From a virus: a stretch of 43,297 bases of DNA. The notes under the pieces were generated by a model. It did no database searches and was not told where the DNA came from. It saw nothing but the letters and a program-made list of their open reading frames with translations. The first letter of the stretch is position 1. Each line of letters opens with the position of its first letter. Location of the stretch: IMG/VR virus record IMGVR_UViG_3300027754_000179, positions 1 to 43,297 of that record. One strand, given 5' to 3'. The translations under genes and the position numbers were made by a program. Shown here one piece after another: positions 2,298-23,495 of the stretch.

Positions 2298-2591
2298 TTA
2301 TTCTCCTTTGATTGGTTTAACGTTGATTGAGATTACTGCTGTAGTTTTGCTATACTTAGCTATTAATGCAGCTGGTACTTCTAGCTCTGTTAATAGCGCT
2401 TTGTTATCTACAATAGTTCTTTGTGAAAGCTTAACGTCGCTGGTATAGTATTCACCTACTTGAACACCTTCACCTTGATTTTTAAGCTCATCTTTGTATG
2501 CAGCTTCTTGTTCTTGAAGTGCCTTGATCTCTTCTTGTAATTGGCCTAAACGGTCAACTAATGAAAGGGCTTGTTGAATTGTTGTTGTCAT
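2298..2591 (-). CDS. Small coiled-coil phage protein, first gene of a four-gene operon
   Basis: 97 residues. Residues 1-40 form a predicted coiled coil (LVDRLGQLQEEIKALQEQEA...). The rest is a small beta-rich domain with the pattern GEYYTSDVKLSQRTIVDNKALL and a C-terminal VISINVKPIKGE. Similar short proteins with a leading coiled coil and a 'xxG.Y.....S.RT..D.KAL' core often lie near phage recombination genes; their function is unknown to me, and a Gam-like nuclease inhibitor is only a loose analogy. It has a strong AAGGAG site and a near-consensus promoter at 2641-2669. Confidence 0.6.
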   Translation of the reverse strand: MTTTIQQALSLVDRLGQLQEEIKALQEQEAAYKDELKNQGEGVQVGEYYTSDVKLSQRTIVDNKALLTELEVPAALIAKYSKTTAVISINVKPIKGE

Positions 2592-2640: not shown

Positions 2641-2669
2641 ATATTAGAGTAGTATTTAAACCATGTCAA
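2641..2669 (-). promoter_or_regulatory. Near-consensus sigma70 promoter for the 2591-to-1415 operon
   Basis: On the minus strand TTGACA (2664-2669), exactly 17 bp, TAATAT (2641-2646). The leader to the ATG at 2591 carries CGAATAAGGAGA, the same block as in the ArdC-like gene leader. The stretch 2670-2787 between this promoter and the pqqA terminator holds no convincing gene; I see only a short GGGTAAAACCC hairpin near 2754-2764. Confidence 0.7.
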
Positions 2670-2829: not shown

Positions 2830-2901
2830 TTACTTGTTCATTACGTACATTGTTACTTCAAAGCCAAAACGCATTTCTGTTGCTGATGGGGTTGTCCACA
2901 T
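2830..2901 (-). CDS. pqqA: PqqA, pyrroloquinoline quinone precursor peptide
   Basis: 23 codons plus TAA. The peptide starts MWTTPSATEM and continues RFGFEVTMY, ending VMNK. Known 23-residue PqqA peptides start MW, have P at position 5 and the core RxGxEVTxY. Glu15 and Tyr19 here are the pair cross-linked by the radical SAM enzyme PqqE (with PqqD as chaperone) to build PQQ, the redox cofactor of periplasmic methanol, alcohol and glucose dehydrogenases. The ATG at 2901 follows AAGGAGA at six bases, a strong site. A terminator follows immediately. No pqqB, C, D, E or F gene is in the window, so the peptide would need the host enzymes. Its neighbours are phage replication genes, which argues against host contamination. 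This is an auxiliary metabolic gene candidate; length, termini and catalytic pair all agree, so chance is unlikely. Confidence 0.92.
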   Translation of the reverse strand: MWTTPSATEMRFGFEVTMYVMNK

Positions 2902-2925
2902 ATTGTTCTCCTTAGTAGATCAATT

Positions 2926-2953: not shown

Positions 2954-3013
2954 AATTGAAGTTTGTATTGCATATTTTGCGCTTTTTGCTAAACAAAACC
3001 ATCAAGAAAATCA

Positions 3014-3241
3014 TTAATATCTGGCGTAGGTAGCTTGATTGTAAAGTTTCTCTTTTAAACCTTCCAAAGCATCATCGGTAAATGCTTCTGGGTGGGTCAA
3101 CATAATAGACTCAATGACTTTATCTAATCTATTCCAATGAGATCGCTTTTCACTTGGCGTGTATTTATCAAACACTTGACGTGACGCATTAAGCGCTACC
3201 TCTCTTAATTGTTGACGTTCTTTTGCTGTAAGTAAAATCAT
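3014..3241 (-). CDS. Hypothetical small helical protein
   Basis: 75 residues, almost wholly helix-forming and charged, without cysteines, membrane segments or known motifs. I do not recognise it. The ATG at 3241 overlaps the stop of the methyltransferase gene (ATGA, 3238-3241), so it is translationally coupled to it and might be an accessory protein. It is the last gene before pqqA in this leftward run; a 112-base leader separates the two. Confidence 0.55.
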   Translation of the reverse strand: MILLTAKERQQLREVALNASRQVFDKYTPSEKRSHWNRLDKVIESIMLTHPEAFTDDALEGLKEKLYNQATYARY

Positions 3242-4635
3242 TTAATTTCTCCTTTGTTGATGCGTTCCTGTTGAAGTTCTTTATAATCAGTATTTAATTC
3301 ACATCCTAAGTATTGTCTACTTAACTCTAAAGCAACTTGAGCTGTAGTTCCTGAACCCATAAACGGATCTAATACTGTGCCAGCTATAGTTTCTTGTGTG
3401 TTGCATTTACATTGTTTTATGAGACCGCCATCCAAATAATTATTTGCGCATTTCAATCCACTCTTATAAAAGATTTTAGTCATAGCCTGATCATATTTTT
3501 CATCTAACAATAATAATTGTTTAAGCTTGATCCAGTCTTCTTTAGATGGGTAGCTTCCCCCTTTTTCAAACCAATGGTGTGGAGCTTGCGTTCCAAAATG
3601 TTCTTCAATTTGATCAATAGTAAACTCTTGCATGTGCCTATTAAATTGTAAGTAATCTCGCAATTCATTATGATCAGGAAGCTTTCTATATTCTACAACC
3701 TGATTTCTAAATTCTGCATCAAGCACAGCATATGGTTTACGTTCCTTATCGGTTTCCATAATGTTCTTACGGATTTCTTCGACCTCTTCTAAAGTAAGAT
3801 TTTTTTCTACAATCTTTTCTCTTTTGTATGGTGTTCTGCATTCAACACATATTTTTTCAGGTGCGCCAGCTTTGATGCATGGTTCAATCAAATCTTTTGG
3901 AAAAGTAGCAAAGTGTGCGCCTTTGTATGGTTTAGTGTTAACAGTCCATACAGATCTCTTATTGCGCATACCATCGTAAACTTTGTATTCAGGAGGCCTT
4001 GCATTTACTCCAGCCTGACCTTGTCTGTCTACACTTCCCTTAGCTCCCTTGGTGCCAGCTGGTATAACACCAGGTTCTTTCATAGCCAAATGATCAAAAT
4101 AATATTTAGGTGATTTAGTAAACAAGAAAATATACTCATGAGCTTTAGTGCATCTATCTTGCACGGATTCGGGCATTGGATTTGGTTTATGCCAAATAAT
4201 GTCTTGTCTGAGCGTCCATCCAAAATCTTGTAAGGCAAATGCTACGCGCCAAGGAATACCAATTAAATCTTTTTCTTTTAAGCCTTCTTGCTTATTGCCG
4301 CGCCTTGCACATGCGTTTGGTAAATCTTGTTTTGAATTAGATACAGTCTGTTTATTTAATGCTTGCCCTTTGCCTGGTCTATAATTGTAGTAACTATCTC
4401 CAAGGTTAAGCCACACAGTTCCATCATCTGAAAGAATGTCCCACACGTGAGCAAATACATCTACCATGTTAGCAACATAATCACCAACAGTTTGTTCTAA
4501 TCCTATTTGTCCGTCATGACCGTAATCACGCAATCCGTAGTAAGGTGGAGATGTCACACACGTTTGAACTTTAACTCCCTCATCTTTCCATTGTTTCATT
4601 ATCTCGCGGCAATCGCCAAATTCAATTTTATTCAT
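3238..4635 (-). CDS. DNA methyltransferase (N4-cytosine/N6-adenine, beta class) with Cys-rich insert
   Basis: 465 residues. Motif IV TSPPYYGLRDYG is at 28-39 and the AdoMet-binding motif I DPFMGSGTT at 423-431 near the C-terminus, the order typical of beta-class DNA methylases. It transfers a methyl group from AdoMet to an exocyclic amino group in DNA; SPPY is commoner in N4-cytosine enzymes but does not settle the base. The middle holds a target-recognition region with CVEC and later Cys pairs (a possible zinc site). No cognate restriction endonuclease is adjacent, so it looks like an orphan phage methylase protecting phage DNA or marking it for packaging or regulation. Starts and stops overlap both neighbours by four bases. 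Confidence 0.9.
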   Translation of the reverse strand: MNKIEFGDCREIMKQWKDEGVKVQTCVTSPPYYGLRDYGHDGQIGLEQTVGDYVANMVDVFAHVWDILSDDGTVWLNLGDSYYNYRPGKGQALNKQTVSNSKQDLPNACARRGNKQEGLKEKDLIGIPWRVAFALQDFGWTLRQDIIWHKPNPMPESVQDRCTKAHEYIFLFTKSPKYYFDHLAMKEPGVIPAGTKGAKGSVDRQGQAGVNARPPEYKVYDGMRNKRSVWTVNTKPYKGAHFATFPKDLIEPCIKAGAPEKICVECRTPYKREKIVEKNLTLEEVEEIRKNIMETDKERKPYAVLDAEFRNQVVEYRKLPDHNELRDYLQFNRHMQEFTIDQIEEHFGTQAPHHWFEKGGSYPSKEDWIKLKQLLLLDEKYDQAMTKIFYKSGLKCANNYLDGGLIKQCKCNTQETIAGTVLDPFMGSGTTAQVALELSRQYLGCELNTDYKELQQERINKGEIK

Positions 4636-19880: not shown

Positions 19881-22800
19881 CTAAGTAATAAGTCCCAAAG
19901 CTTTTAATCGATTAGTATCAGTAACGGGCGTTAAAGTACTTACATCAACTTTAGATGGGGGTGTTGAAGGTAGACCTCCACCAGGAGATTGTACACCTCC
20001 TGTTGAAGTTTGTCCAAGGCCTCCTATGCCAGATACGGGAGTTAAAGTGCTTATATCGACATGTGAAGGTGGTCTTACGTATGTAGGTCTTGTAGGTCCT
20101 GTTGGTGTTCCACCATTAATAACGCTATTAAGCGTGTAGTTAATTACGCCATTAATGATTTGTCTTGTAAAGACGCGACCAAGGGTATCTACAAATTGAC
20201 CTAATGAATTTTGTGTTATACCTCCCACTGGCGTACTTGGTGGTGTCACTGGTGGTGTGACAGGCGGCGTAACCACTGGTGGCGTAACTACAGGAGGTGT
20301 CACAGGTGGTTCAACTATTGGTGGTGTAACCACTGGCGGCGTTACCACTGGTGGGGTTACAGGCTCAGTAGGAGGTGTGACCACTGGAGGCGTTACAGGA
20401 GGAGTAACGACTGGTGGTGTCACAACTGGCGGTTCAACAACAGGAGGAGTCACTGGAGGTGTTATCGGTGGCTCTACTGGCGGAGTAACAGGCGGCGTAA
20501 CAACTGGAGGAGTCACTACTGGTGGCTCTACTACAGGAGGAGTTACGGGCGGTGTTACAGGAGGTACCACAGGCGGTGTCACTGGAGGTGTAACAACTGG
20601 TGGAGTAACAGGTGGCACCACTGGTGGATTTTGAATAATGTTGCCAATAGTATCTGTTACGCCTGGTGTAGTAGGTGTTGTCGTACCTGTATCCGTTGGA
20701 GGTGTAACTGGCGGAGTGACAGGTGGAGTAACAGGTGGAGTAACAGGTGGTGTGACTGGCGGCGTTACAGGTGGCGCTGGCGGATTAGCTATGTAATTAT
20801 TTACAAAGTTTGTTTTGTAATCATTTGCAGCTTTTTGTGCTTGATTTAATATTACAGAATTAGCTTGTATATTTTTAAACCCTTCTGTGCGTAACATTGT
20901 TTGAGCCTGTTCTACTCTTGCTTGTAAGTCTTTATATCCTTGATCTTTGTATAACGCAGCATTAGCCATTTGTGTTTGAGTAAGAGTAGGTGGTGTTGTA
21001 GGCGTCGTAGGCGTCGTAGGCGTGGTCGGCGTTGTAGGTGTTGTAGGTGTTGTAGGTGTTGTAGGTGTTGTAGGTGTAGTTGTTGTACCTGGCACCGCAA
21101 CATGAGCAATATTAGTTCCATATTCAGCATTGTATTTATCAATTTTTGTATTGTAATTATTTATTGTTGTTGCGCTATTTAATAAAGCTCCCGTTGGTGG
21201 CGGTGGTGGAGGTAAATAGGAAAGTGTAGGAATCTTTGTTCCGTAATTATTATTGAAATTTGTTACAGCCTTATTATAATTGTTAGCATCTATAGAGTTT
21301 CCTATAACACCTTTCTCAGGTATGGCCGTAGGCACAGAAGAAATGTTTGTTCCGTTTTCAGCATTATATTTTGCTATGTTGTTATTTAATTCTATTGCTT
21401 TGGTTGCATCAAAGTTTCGGTCTAATCCTATTGGAATATTTATTCCTTGTATTTCATGCGTGCCATATTTTGCATTAAGTCTGTCTATAGCATTATTGTA
21501 AGTTTCAATAGATTTTAAATCGCCAGTTGGTGGTGGTGGAAGTTGTATAGGTGTAATTGTTCCAGCTTTAGGATTAATTGTATAATATTTTCCAGACGCG
21601 CCTTGCATCGCTTGATTGGAATTGATACTAATTCCAAGTTTAGGATTTCCTTGCGGTTGATTTGGGTCTGTACTAACTTGTTTTTTTGCAATATCTAATA
21701 ATGCAGCATCAGTTGGTTTTTTAACAAGTTGATCAAGAACATATTGTTCTTTATTATTAATTTGTAAATTTTTTGGAGTGTCGCCATCTAATACTGATTT
21801 AAGCGCTAGGTTAACCGCACTACCAGCTAAGCCGTATTTTGAACGCAACTGAGTGGTATTTGTTGAAAGGTTTTCAATGTTTTTTTGGATTGTTGCTGCT
21901 TTTGCAAAATCTCCAGAATCAATTGCTGCCTTCTGTTGTGCATAAAGATTATTTGGATCATTATTAACAATAGATAACTTTTGTTTGTTTATATTCAACG
22001 CTTCTTTTAAATACTCTTTTTCTTTATCTGTCAAATCAACTAATGTTGCACTTGCACTAAGTCCTGATGCAACTTTTCCAGAATCTAATATTTTTTGAGT
22101 ATCTACAATTGAATTAATAATTTGTGTTTTATTTTTTAGTTCTGGAGAAATAACAACTTGTTTGTCTTTAGGCAATACAGTATTTGTTTTAGTTAAATCT
22201 GTTTGAATCTTTTCTTGTTCTTTTTGTAATTCAACAGCTTTAGCAATGTCACCACTTTGAATTGCTTTTGATTGTGCGTCTGAGTTGTTTGAGTATGCGT
22301 ATAGGTCATATGCAGCTTGTATAGAGCCAGATACTGTGTCGTATTGGCCTTGCAAATTATTTAAATTATCAAATATACCTAATATTTCTTTGTTACCTAA
22401 TAAGTCACCATTAGTCATATTTGAATCAATGGTGGTTGTAATTGGAGCGCCTTCTCTTATGGTTCCATCTGGTAAAACTTCAATTGGTTTTAAAGTAAAT
22501 TGATATTTACCACCGCCTACATCAGTAACTGTTGTGCCAACTTGCGAACTAAGATCTGCTACATTAATTTTTTCACCTGTAAAGGTATTCATATTGCCAG
22601 TGGCTGTTTGATAGACACTGTTTAATTCAGTTAATTTTGTTGCTGCTGCATTTAATGCTGGAATAATATTATCATTTAAATTTGCCGCAATTGGATTTGC
22701 AGTATCTGCATCGCCTGCATCTTTAGCTGCATTGTATGCTGTAATTTGAGCATCGTATCTAGCTTTTAAACTTGCATAATTGCTATCTGTATATTCTTTA

Positions 22801-23495
22801 TTGTATGCATCTGCGGCCACTTGTGCTTTAGTTTGTAAATCTGACGCTTTTGAAAATGTAGGCAATACACCTTTAATTGAATTTACAGTATTTGTAAATC
22901 CATTTGAAATACTTTGAATAGCTGGTGAGTTAGCTTTTGCTGCTTCCCAAGCTTTGCCCATGTATTGAGTTGTAATTGAGCTAATACCAGCAGTAGTTGC
23001 TGCATCTATGATGTCACCACCAGTAATTCCAGCAATGACGCCAGCTGATGTAGCTTTACCTAATGCGCCAGAAAGAACAGGCGCAAATGTAGAATCGCCA
23101 AGAAGACTATCAACAGCTTTATTAAATAGTCCAGCTGGAACCATTTGTCCCGTGGCTGCATCTAACACTTTTGTTGGATCTACTAATGCAGAGCCAAATA
23201 ATTGTTTTTGTAAGATTGGGTCTGATACAAAAGGAACAATACCAGCGGCAGCAATACTTGCTAAGCTTCCACCATTAAGAGCAGAAATAGCAGCATGGCC
23301 AATACCTAAAGCTATATTTGATCCAATGTTTGCTGCAACATCAAAAGCGCTTGATATAAAGGATCCAAAACCTGGAGCTACAAAGTAATCAAATGCAATT
23401 GTTTCAATAATTGGTAATGCATTATCAATAATAACTTCAAGTACACTTCCTACCGCATCAAATACGGCGCCAATTGCATCTCCGACAAATCCCAT
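19881..23495 (-). CDS. 1204-residue virion protein with PTT and PPV repeat arms
   Basis: N-terminal 180 residues are hydrophobic and Gly/Ala-rich (GFVGDAIGAVFDAVGSVLEV; AAAGIVPFV; GALGKATSAGVIAGITGGDI), possibly membrane-seeking. A long helical region with repeated IN(K/S)YNAxYGT modules (about 640-800) follows. Then a PTT tract (about 803-836) and, after a helix, a PPV(T/V/E) tract (about 908-1090) that should form extended polyproline II rods. The C-terminus is Gly/Ser/Thr-rich with GRVFTRQIINGVINYTLNSV. Such proteins occur beside ejection proteins in podophages. No enzyme motif. ATG 23495 overlaps the upstream stop (TAATG). Its repeat DNA makes long open frames on the plus strand that are only shadows. 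Confidence 0.55.
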   Translation of the reverse strand: MGFVGDAIGAVFDAVGSVLEVIIDNALPIIETIAFDYFVAPGFGSFISSAFDVAANIGSNIALGIGHAAISALNGGSLASIAAAGIVPFVSDPILQKQLFGSALVDPTKVLDAATGQMVPAGLFNKAVDSLLGDSTFAPVLSGALGKATSAGVIAGITGGDIIDAATTAGISSITTQYMGKAWEAAKANSPAIQSISNGFTNTVNSIKGVLPTFSKASDLQTKAQVAADAYNKEYTDSNYASLKARYDAQITAYNAAKDAGDADTANPIAANLNDNIIPALNAAATKLTELNSVYQTATGNMNTFTGEKINVADLSSQVGTTVTDVGGGKYQFTLKPIEVLPDGTIREGAPITTTIDSNMTNGDLLGNKEILGIFDNLNNLQGQYDTVSGSIQAAYDLYAYSNNSDAQSKAIQSGDIAKAVELQKEQEKIQTDLTKTNTVLPKDKQVVISPELKNKTQIINSIVDTQKILDSGKVASGLSASATLVDLTDKEKEYLKEALNINKQKLSIVNNDPNNLYAQQKAAIDSGDFAKAATIQKNIENLSTNTTQLRSKYGLAGSAVNLALKSVLDGDTPKNLQINNKEQYVLDQLVKKPTDAALLDIAKKQVSTDPNQPQGNPKLGISINSNQAMQGASGKYYTINPKAGTITPIQLPPPPTGDLKSIETYNNAIDRLNAKYGTHEIQGINIPIGLDRNFDATKAIELNNNIAKYNAENGTNISSVPTAIPEKGVIGNSIDANNYNKAVTNFNNNYGTKIPTLSYLPPPPPPTGALLNSATTINNYNTKIDKYNAEYGTNIAHVAVPGTTTTPTTPTTPTTPTTPTTPTTPTTPTTPTTPPTLTQTQMANAALYKDQGYKDLQARVEQAQTMLRTEGFKNIQANSVILNQAQKAANDYKTNFVNNYIANPPAPPVTPPVTPPVTPPVTPPVTPPVTPPTDTGTTTPTTPGVTDTIGNIIQNPPVVPPVTPPVVTPPVTPPVVPPVTPPVTPPVVEPPVVTPPVVTPPVTPPVEPPITPPVTPPVVEPPVVTPPVVTPPVTPPVVTPPTEPVTPPVVTPPVVTPPIVEPPVTPPVVTPPVVTPPVTPPVTPPSTPVGGITQNSLGQFVDTLGRVFTRQIINGVINYTLNSVINGGTPTGPTRPTYVRPPSHVDISTLTPVSGIGGLGQTSTGGVQSPGGGLPSTPPSKVDVSTLTPVTDTNRLKALGLIT
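20227..20770 (-). repeat. PPV(T/V/E) coding tandem repeat
   Basis: About 540 bases of degenerate 9- to 12-base units coding for TPPV, VTPP and EPPV. Synonymous third positions vary, so selection on the protein is likely. Interrupted near 20636-20700 by a non-repetitive stretch. Confidence 0.8.
20993..21085 (-). repeat. Nine-base PTT repeat array
   Basis: About ten copies of a 9-bp unit (GTAGGTGTT-like on the plus strand), coding for Pro-Thr-Thr. The last five units are nearly identical, so slippage is likely. Confidence 0.85.

Follow-up and report, generated by a model that had tools for sequence, protein, structure and literature searches.

A host-type pqqA gene in phages of Methylophilaceae that may resupply the precursor of PQQ

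The DNA analysed here (the window, 43,297 nucleotides) is a 43.3-kb virus contig that encodes on its minus strand a 23-residue peptide, which profile searches confirmed as a genuine, full-length PqqA, the precursor of the cofactor PQQ (window 2901-2830). Related copies recur in phages of Methylophilaceae, and we consider it probable that they form a host-derived cassette that would resupply the consumed PQQ precursor to host PqqB-E and thereby sustain methanol oxidation.

PqqA of the window phage and its genomic setting

The original prediction had read this short frame as PqqA, and both profile models bear it out over the full length and well above their cut-offs: Pfam PF08042 at 41.3 bits (cut-off 21.1; E 1.4e-10; whole model covered), so that the sub-threshold score named as a possible refutation did not materialise, and NCBIfam TIGR02107, the PqqA equivalog, at 38.5 bits (cut-off 20). 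The peptide, within the 20-30 residues taken as the criterion, carries the PqqA hallmark residues W2, P5, R11, G13, E15, and Y19, with E15 and Y19 giving the E-x-x-x-Y spacing for the Glu-Tyr cross-link that PqqE introduces into PqqA while PqqD acts as chaperone (PMC7678222, PMC9851590). The plus strand of the same positions does not translate to PqqA, the peptide matched no PHROG family, and no solved structures of PqqA relatives were found. The predicted Shine-Dalgarno site and intrinsic terminator are both in place (Table 1). PqqB, PqqC, PqqD, and PqqE were absent by tblastn from the window, as had been claimed, and from the stretches around pqqA of the 129 IMG/VR loci described below.

Table 1. 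Features at and around pqqA in the window
Feature	Position	Strand	Basis
pqqA, 23 codons (2901-2833) plus TAA (2832-2830), product MWTTPSATEMRFGFEVTMYVMNK	2830..2901	-	translation, profile matches
Shine-Dalgarno AAGGAG, short distance 5' of ATG	2908..2913	-	sequence
Intrinsic terminator, hairpin AGGGGAGCTTTGGCTCCCTT then T run, soon 3' of stop codon	2793..2812	-	terminator scan
Sigma-70-like promoter TTGACA-17-TAATAT of next gene block	2641..2669	-	consensus match only
PQQ-box-like site TAATGATTTTCTTGAT, 115 nt 5' of ATG	3001..3016	-	motif model
Upstream neighbour, 75-aa ORF, function unknown, no PHROG	3014..3241	-	ORF list, PHROG search
Downstream neighbour, 97-aa ORF	2298..2591	-	weak match to RecE-like and unknown phage families

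In agreement with the predicted phage genome, phage-type genes flank pqqA on both sides; they encode a DNA methylase, DnaB-like helicase, primosomal protein, exonuclease, lysozyme, SU10-type adaptor proteins, and an ArdC-like anti-restriction protein. No methanol dehydrogenase was found among the window phage proteins scanned. The DNA methylase (3238-4635, minus strand) shows a DNA match of ~70% to cyanophage methylases, with a long middle part apparently outside these matches, and a 1204-aa ORF in the structural region (19881-23495, minus strand) contains long TPPVTPPV-type repeats.

An assembly join of host and phage reads, the artefact named in the original prediction, and host contamination are both ruled out by independent contigs and by the isolate genomes. 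Contig L258 was assembled in another metagenome, shares 99.5% identity with the window across 12.6 kb, and carries pqqA in the matching position, as do the more diverged relatives L259, L261-L264, L266, and L270 (65-84% identity to the window helicase); this conservation also excludes a chance resemblance. More distant helicase relatives that we fetched are without pqqA, or their contig ends before the site. On sequence grounds, pqqA qualifies as an auxiliary metabolic gene, that is, a host-derived gene inside a real phage genome.

Distribution, host origin, and selection

A tblastn search with the window peptide against INPHARED (50,697 phage records) gave 12 matches, nine of which are cultured Methylophilales/Methylophilaceae phages: P19250A, Venkman, MEP301, MEP401, MEP402, and four Melnitz phages. 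All nine Methylophilales phage isolates found in this collection carry pqqA. MEP431-434, HIM624-A, and Venkman EXVC038S are listed in the taxonomy and gave no INPHARED match; they may be absent from the collection, and a near search with Venkman did not recover EXVC038S. One further match is a podovirus assembled from Manatee Spring, and the last two, named Acinetobacter phage MD-2021a (CAKLQF020000010.1, CAKLQH020000055.1), were rejected as wrongly labelled contigs of bacterial DNA; the one of these records that was read holds a bacterial pqqABCDE operon, with pqqBCDE directly after pqqA, plus fur and ppk.

The pqqA-bearing isolates span T4-like phages to Zobellviridae. P19250A and Venkman form one genus-level cluster (PMC8163748), MEP301 belongs to a separate group (PMC10580990), and the records classify MEP402 as Zobellviridae and Melnitz as Kyanoviridae. 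We used published classifications in place of lineage counts by shared proteins, which were dropped because single linkage fused mosaic phages into a single large group.

Two DNA patterns searched against IMG/VR each returned at least 120 stretches, and every one of the 129 loci fetched encodes a PqqA peptide; the viral-database search proposed along with the original prediction thus places the gene in nine INPHARED isolates and more than 120 IMG/VR contigs. Almost every phage copy has an AGGAG-like site ahead of it. A wider spread in phages of pseudomonads was rejected: a pseudomonad-type PqqA pattern had no match in IMG/VR, and an Acinetobacter PqqA query added no phage type to the methylophages and the one Manatee Spring podovirus, its other two matches being the mislabelled bacterial records. 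Separately, some viral contigs (L011, L020, L025, L031, L032, L035, L086) carry clearly different PqqA types, whose sequences may stem from phages of other PQQ-making hosts.

PqqA is missing from the annotation of every INPHARED phage copy: the site either lacks a gene call or is assigned a hypothetical ORF, which lay on the opposite strand where we looked. The expectation that so short a gene is easily missed by gene callers holds for all nine isolates. In the Manatee Spring podovirus (L006, 2067-2195, minus strand) and the Melnitz phages (L007, 5961-6056, minus strand), a hypothetical gene lies antisense to pqqA; these are apparently wrong calls that hide it.

The peptide core EMRFGFEVTMY is found in the genome collection, among the matches listed, almost only in Methylophilaceae and unnamed betaproteobacterial MAGs, and this Methylophilaceae-typical core, together with the methylophages among the INPHARED matches, upholds the methylotroph host of the original prediction. 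One peptide, MWTTPAATEMRFGFEVTMYVMNK, is the commonest in hosts and in phages alike, and the suggested comparison with Methylophilaceae PqqA found near-identity, the window peptide being one residue away from the commonest form. It is identical to the peptide of three genome-collection loci, the phage-like L246 included. Across about 5 kb, L246 aligns at 81% with the Methylophilaceae phage P19250A, so it is either a prophage or phage DNA that contaminates a genome bin; a small number of MAG loci may be of phage origin. Overall, the sequence comparisons support a Methylophilaceae host origin of phage pqqA.

In the hosts, pqqA was present in 60 of 60 Methylophilaceae genomes sampled (1-12 copies each), and pqqB-E lay near it in only 29 of 118 loci, within the stretch around pqqA. 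An earlier study likewise described 3-12 pqqA copies alongside just one set of the remaining pqq genes (PMC4109929), which fits PqqA as the dose-limiting part.

Phage pqqA is under purifying selection. The 135 phage copies comprise 124 distinct DNA sequences, with a pN/pS of 0.34 (bootstrap range 0.25-0.42) over residues 3-12 and 20-23, which were not set by the search pattern; given the shared ancestry of the sequences, this ratio describes constraint and is not a formal test. P5, R11, G13, E15, and Y19 are invariant in all 135 copies; G13, E15, and Y19 were fixed by the search patterns, whereas P5 and R11 were demanded by neither.

Cassette structure and a host-type control box

The window pqqA sits in a gap within the early/replication half of the genome, with 112 nt upstream and about 240 nt downstream, and its neighbours run in the same direction. 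Of the early operon originally proposed, the early region stands and the strict operon cistron does not: the gap, a terminator of its own (0.2 expected in shuffles of the 800 bases scanned), and a host-type box point to a stand-alone cassette. The promoter-like sequence ahead of the next gene block is consistent with pqqA as a separate transcription unit.

Across phages, pqqA often forms a separate unit that ends in a terminator of its own. Terminator-like hairpins were located after 63 of 134 phage copies and in 4 of 670 mononucleotide-shuffled sequences, and 42 of 136 copies oppose the genes on both sides, with gene calls in this test being rough. Host copies are followed by a terminator in 108 of 127 cases. 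Sigma-70 hexamers were rejected as a common promoter, as they showed no enrichment upstream of phage copies.

A de novo motif search in host upstream regions returned TcATGAaa.TcaTtAG.....aTTcAtga (25 bits), and a separate run on phage upstream regions returned tTaATGaTTTTc..tAt, which aligns to the host box. We then scored phage copies with a 16-bp model trained on hosts only, against 1,443 other ORF upstream regions of the same contigs: 58% of 109 non-redundant phage copies exceeded the 99th percentile of this background (1.5% of shuffles passed the threshold), and about 40%, MEP402 among them, had no clear box at this strict threshold. In the window, scored with a training set without the window and its relatives, the box at 3016-3001 is the top site of the whole 43 kb (25.4 bits, versus 12.4 for the next), and its initial three bases double as the stop codon of the 75-aa ORF upstream.

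The strict palindrome CTCATGAWWWTCATGAG was found in 26 of 60 host genomes, its reversed control in 0. It precedes pqqA or pqqB in 21 of 26 host loci checked—pqqA in 19, 111-154 nt upstream, and pqqB in two. The other five (L361, L365, L372, L373, and L374, from Methylophilaceae) lie near a gene for a glycine-zipper-like outer-membrane protein, or in two of them a pentapeptide-repeat protein, as named by eye; because these loci adjoin non-PQQ genes, the box regulon may extend beyond PQQ. We infer that the box is bound by a host regulator, and the CTCATGAWWWTCATGAG-type site upstream of the window pqqA would place this gene in the host PQQ-box regulon. The box also suggests that phage pqqA may have its own promoter, as a moron-type unit would.

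Possible role in infection

In PQQ synthesis, PqqA serves as substrate rather than enzyme: PqqE acts together with PqqD to link its Glu15 to its Tyr19, the remaining peptide is discarded, and PqqB and PqqC complete the quinone. One PqqA is consumed per PQQ, while PqqB-E are reused; pqqA alone would therefore be the cheapest way to sustain PQQ synthesis. Under the model we favour, pqqA would have been acquired from a Methylophilaceae host and retained by its phages as a stand-alone cassette made up of a host-type control box, a strong ribosome site, the 23-codon gene, and often a terminator. Once the phage shuts off host expression, the PqqA peptide should be exhausted first, and phage PqqA would resupply the one consumed component of the pathway to host PqqB-E. 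The single gene should then suffice for freshly synthesised periplasmic methanol dehydrogenase to keep receiving PQQ, such that methanol oxidation and energy flow would persist in the infected obligate methylotroph. From the sequences, we infer expression during infection, use by host PqqE, and a benefit to the phage. Weighing against this model, about 40% of phage copies show no clear box at the strict threshold, sigma-70 hexamers are not enriched upstream of phage copies, and, with several pqqA copies already present in host cells, one more might make little difference. A broader version—that pqqA is a near-universal, overlooked gene of Methylophilaceae phages, acquired with the host PQQ box and coupling precursor supply to the host regulator—appears somewhat likely.

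Small phage proteins often bind host proteins, and the peptide might accordingly serve something other than PQQ supply, for instance by occupying PqqD/PqqE or by giving rise to another product, with host PQQ synthesis shut down or redirected. We regard this as unlikely: nothing sets the phage peptide apart from the host substrate, Glu15 and Tyr19 included, and it should for that reason be processed rather than block, and a related phage pairs methanol dehydrogenase with pqqA (PMC7678222), which argues for support of the pathway, not shutdown. Quite unlikely, too, is a neutral passenger, in which a short, multi-copy, mobile host cassette was picked up by chance and brings the phage no benefit. 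A cassette of about 200 bp would be easily captured from hosts that hold up to 12 copies, often unlinked to pqqB-E; against this, the gene is retained in nine of nine INPHARED methylophage isolates found, from unrelated groups, keeps its position in diverged relatives of the window phage, and is under purifying selection (pN/pS 0.34). That the DNA box itself is the point, with extra boxes titrating the host regulator and pqqA carried along, is highly improbable even though the box is conserved 5' of phage copies, as a single box per phage makes a weak sponge, purifying selection acts on the peptide itself, and a clear box is lacking in some of the phages that carry pqqA.

Precursor supply, the reading we prefer, has a parallel in cyanophage psbA/psbD, with which the phage replenishes the fastest-depleted part of a host energy pathway. 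The two would work alike and are not homologous; psbA/psbD replace a light-damaged protein, whereas phage pqqA would replace a consumed peptide substrate. Host Methylophilaceae PqqA (TIGR02107 / PF08042) shares with the phage form a near-identical peptide, a box of the same type some 110-155 nt upstream, and a terminator after the gene, but occurs in 1-12 copies per genome, some leading pqqBCDE, whereas the phage has one solitary copy.

A 2020 study described PqqA in the Lake Baikal viral population VP_266, a T4-like phage of a Methylophilaceae host; VP_266 also encodes methanol dehydrogenase (PMC7678222). In addition, pqqA is among the reservoir viral genes listed in a 2026 paper (PMC13188868). 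VP_266 resembles the window phage in carrying a PQQ precursor peptide in a Methylophilaceae phage, with a proposed aid to methanol oxidation (PMC7678222); the window phage differs in having another genome type and pqqA as its only PQQ gene. In the isolate papers searched, we found no mention of pqqA. The literature searched yielded no description of the conservation across isolates, of the cassette form, or of the shared host box, and these look new.

For the hosts, the box is a candidate regulatory element for PQQ synthesis. Methylophilaceae (OM43, LD28) are abundant methanol oxidisers of coastal seas and lakes, and the presence of pqqA in all INPHARED methylophage isolates found suggests that PQQ supply is a likely bottleneck of infection—an idea that is directly testable, because isolates are in culture. 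It also illustrates that a 69-nt gene can remain invisible in published phage genomes. If the broader version is true, it would be a substrate-only metabolic takeover that gene callers have overlooked.
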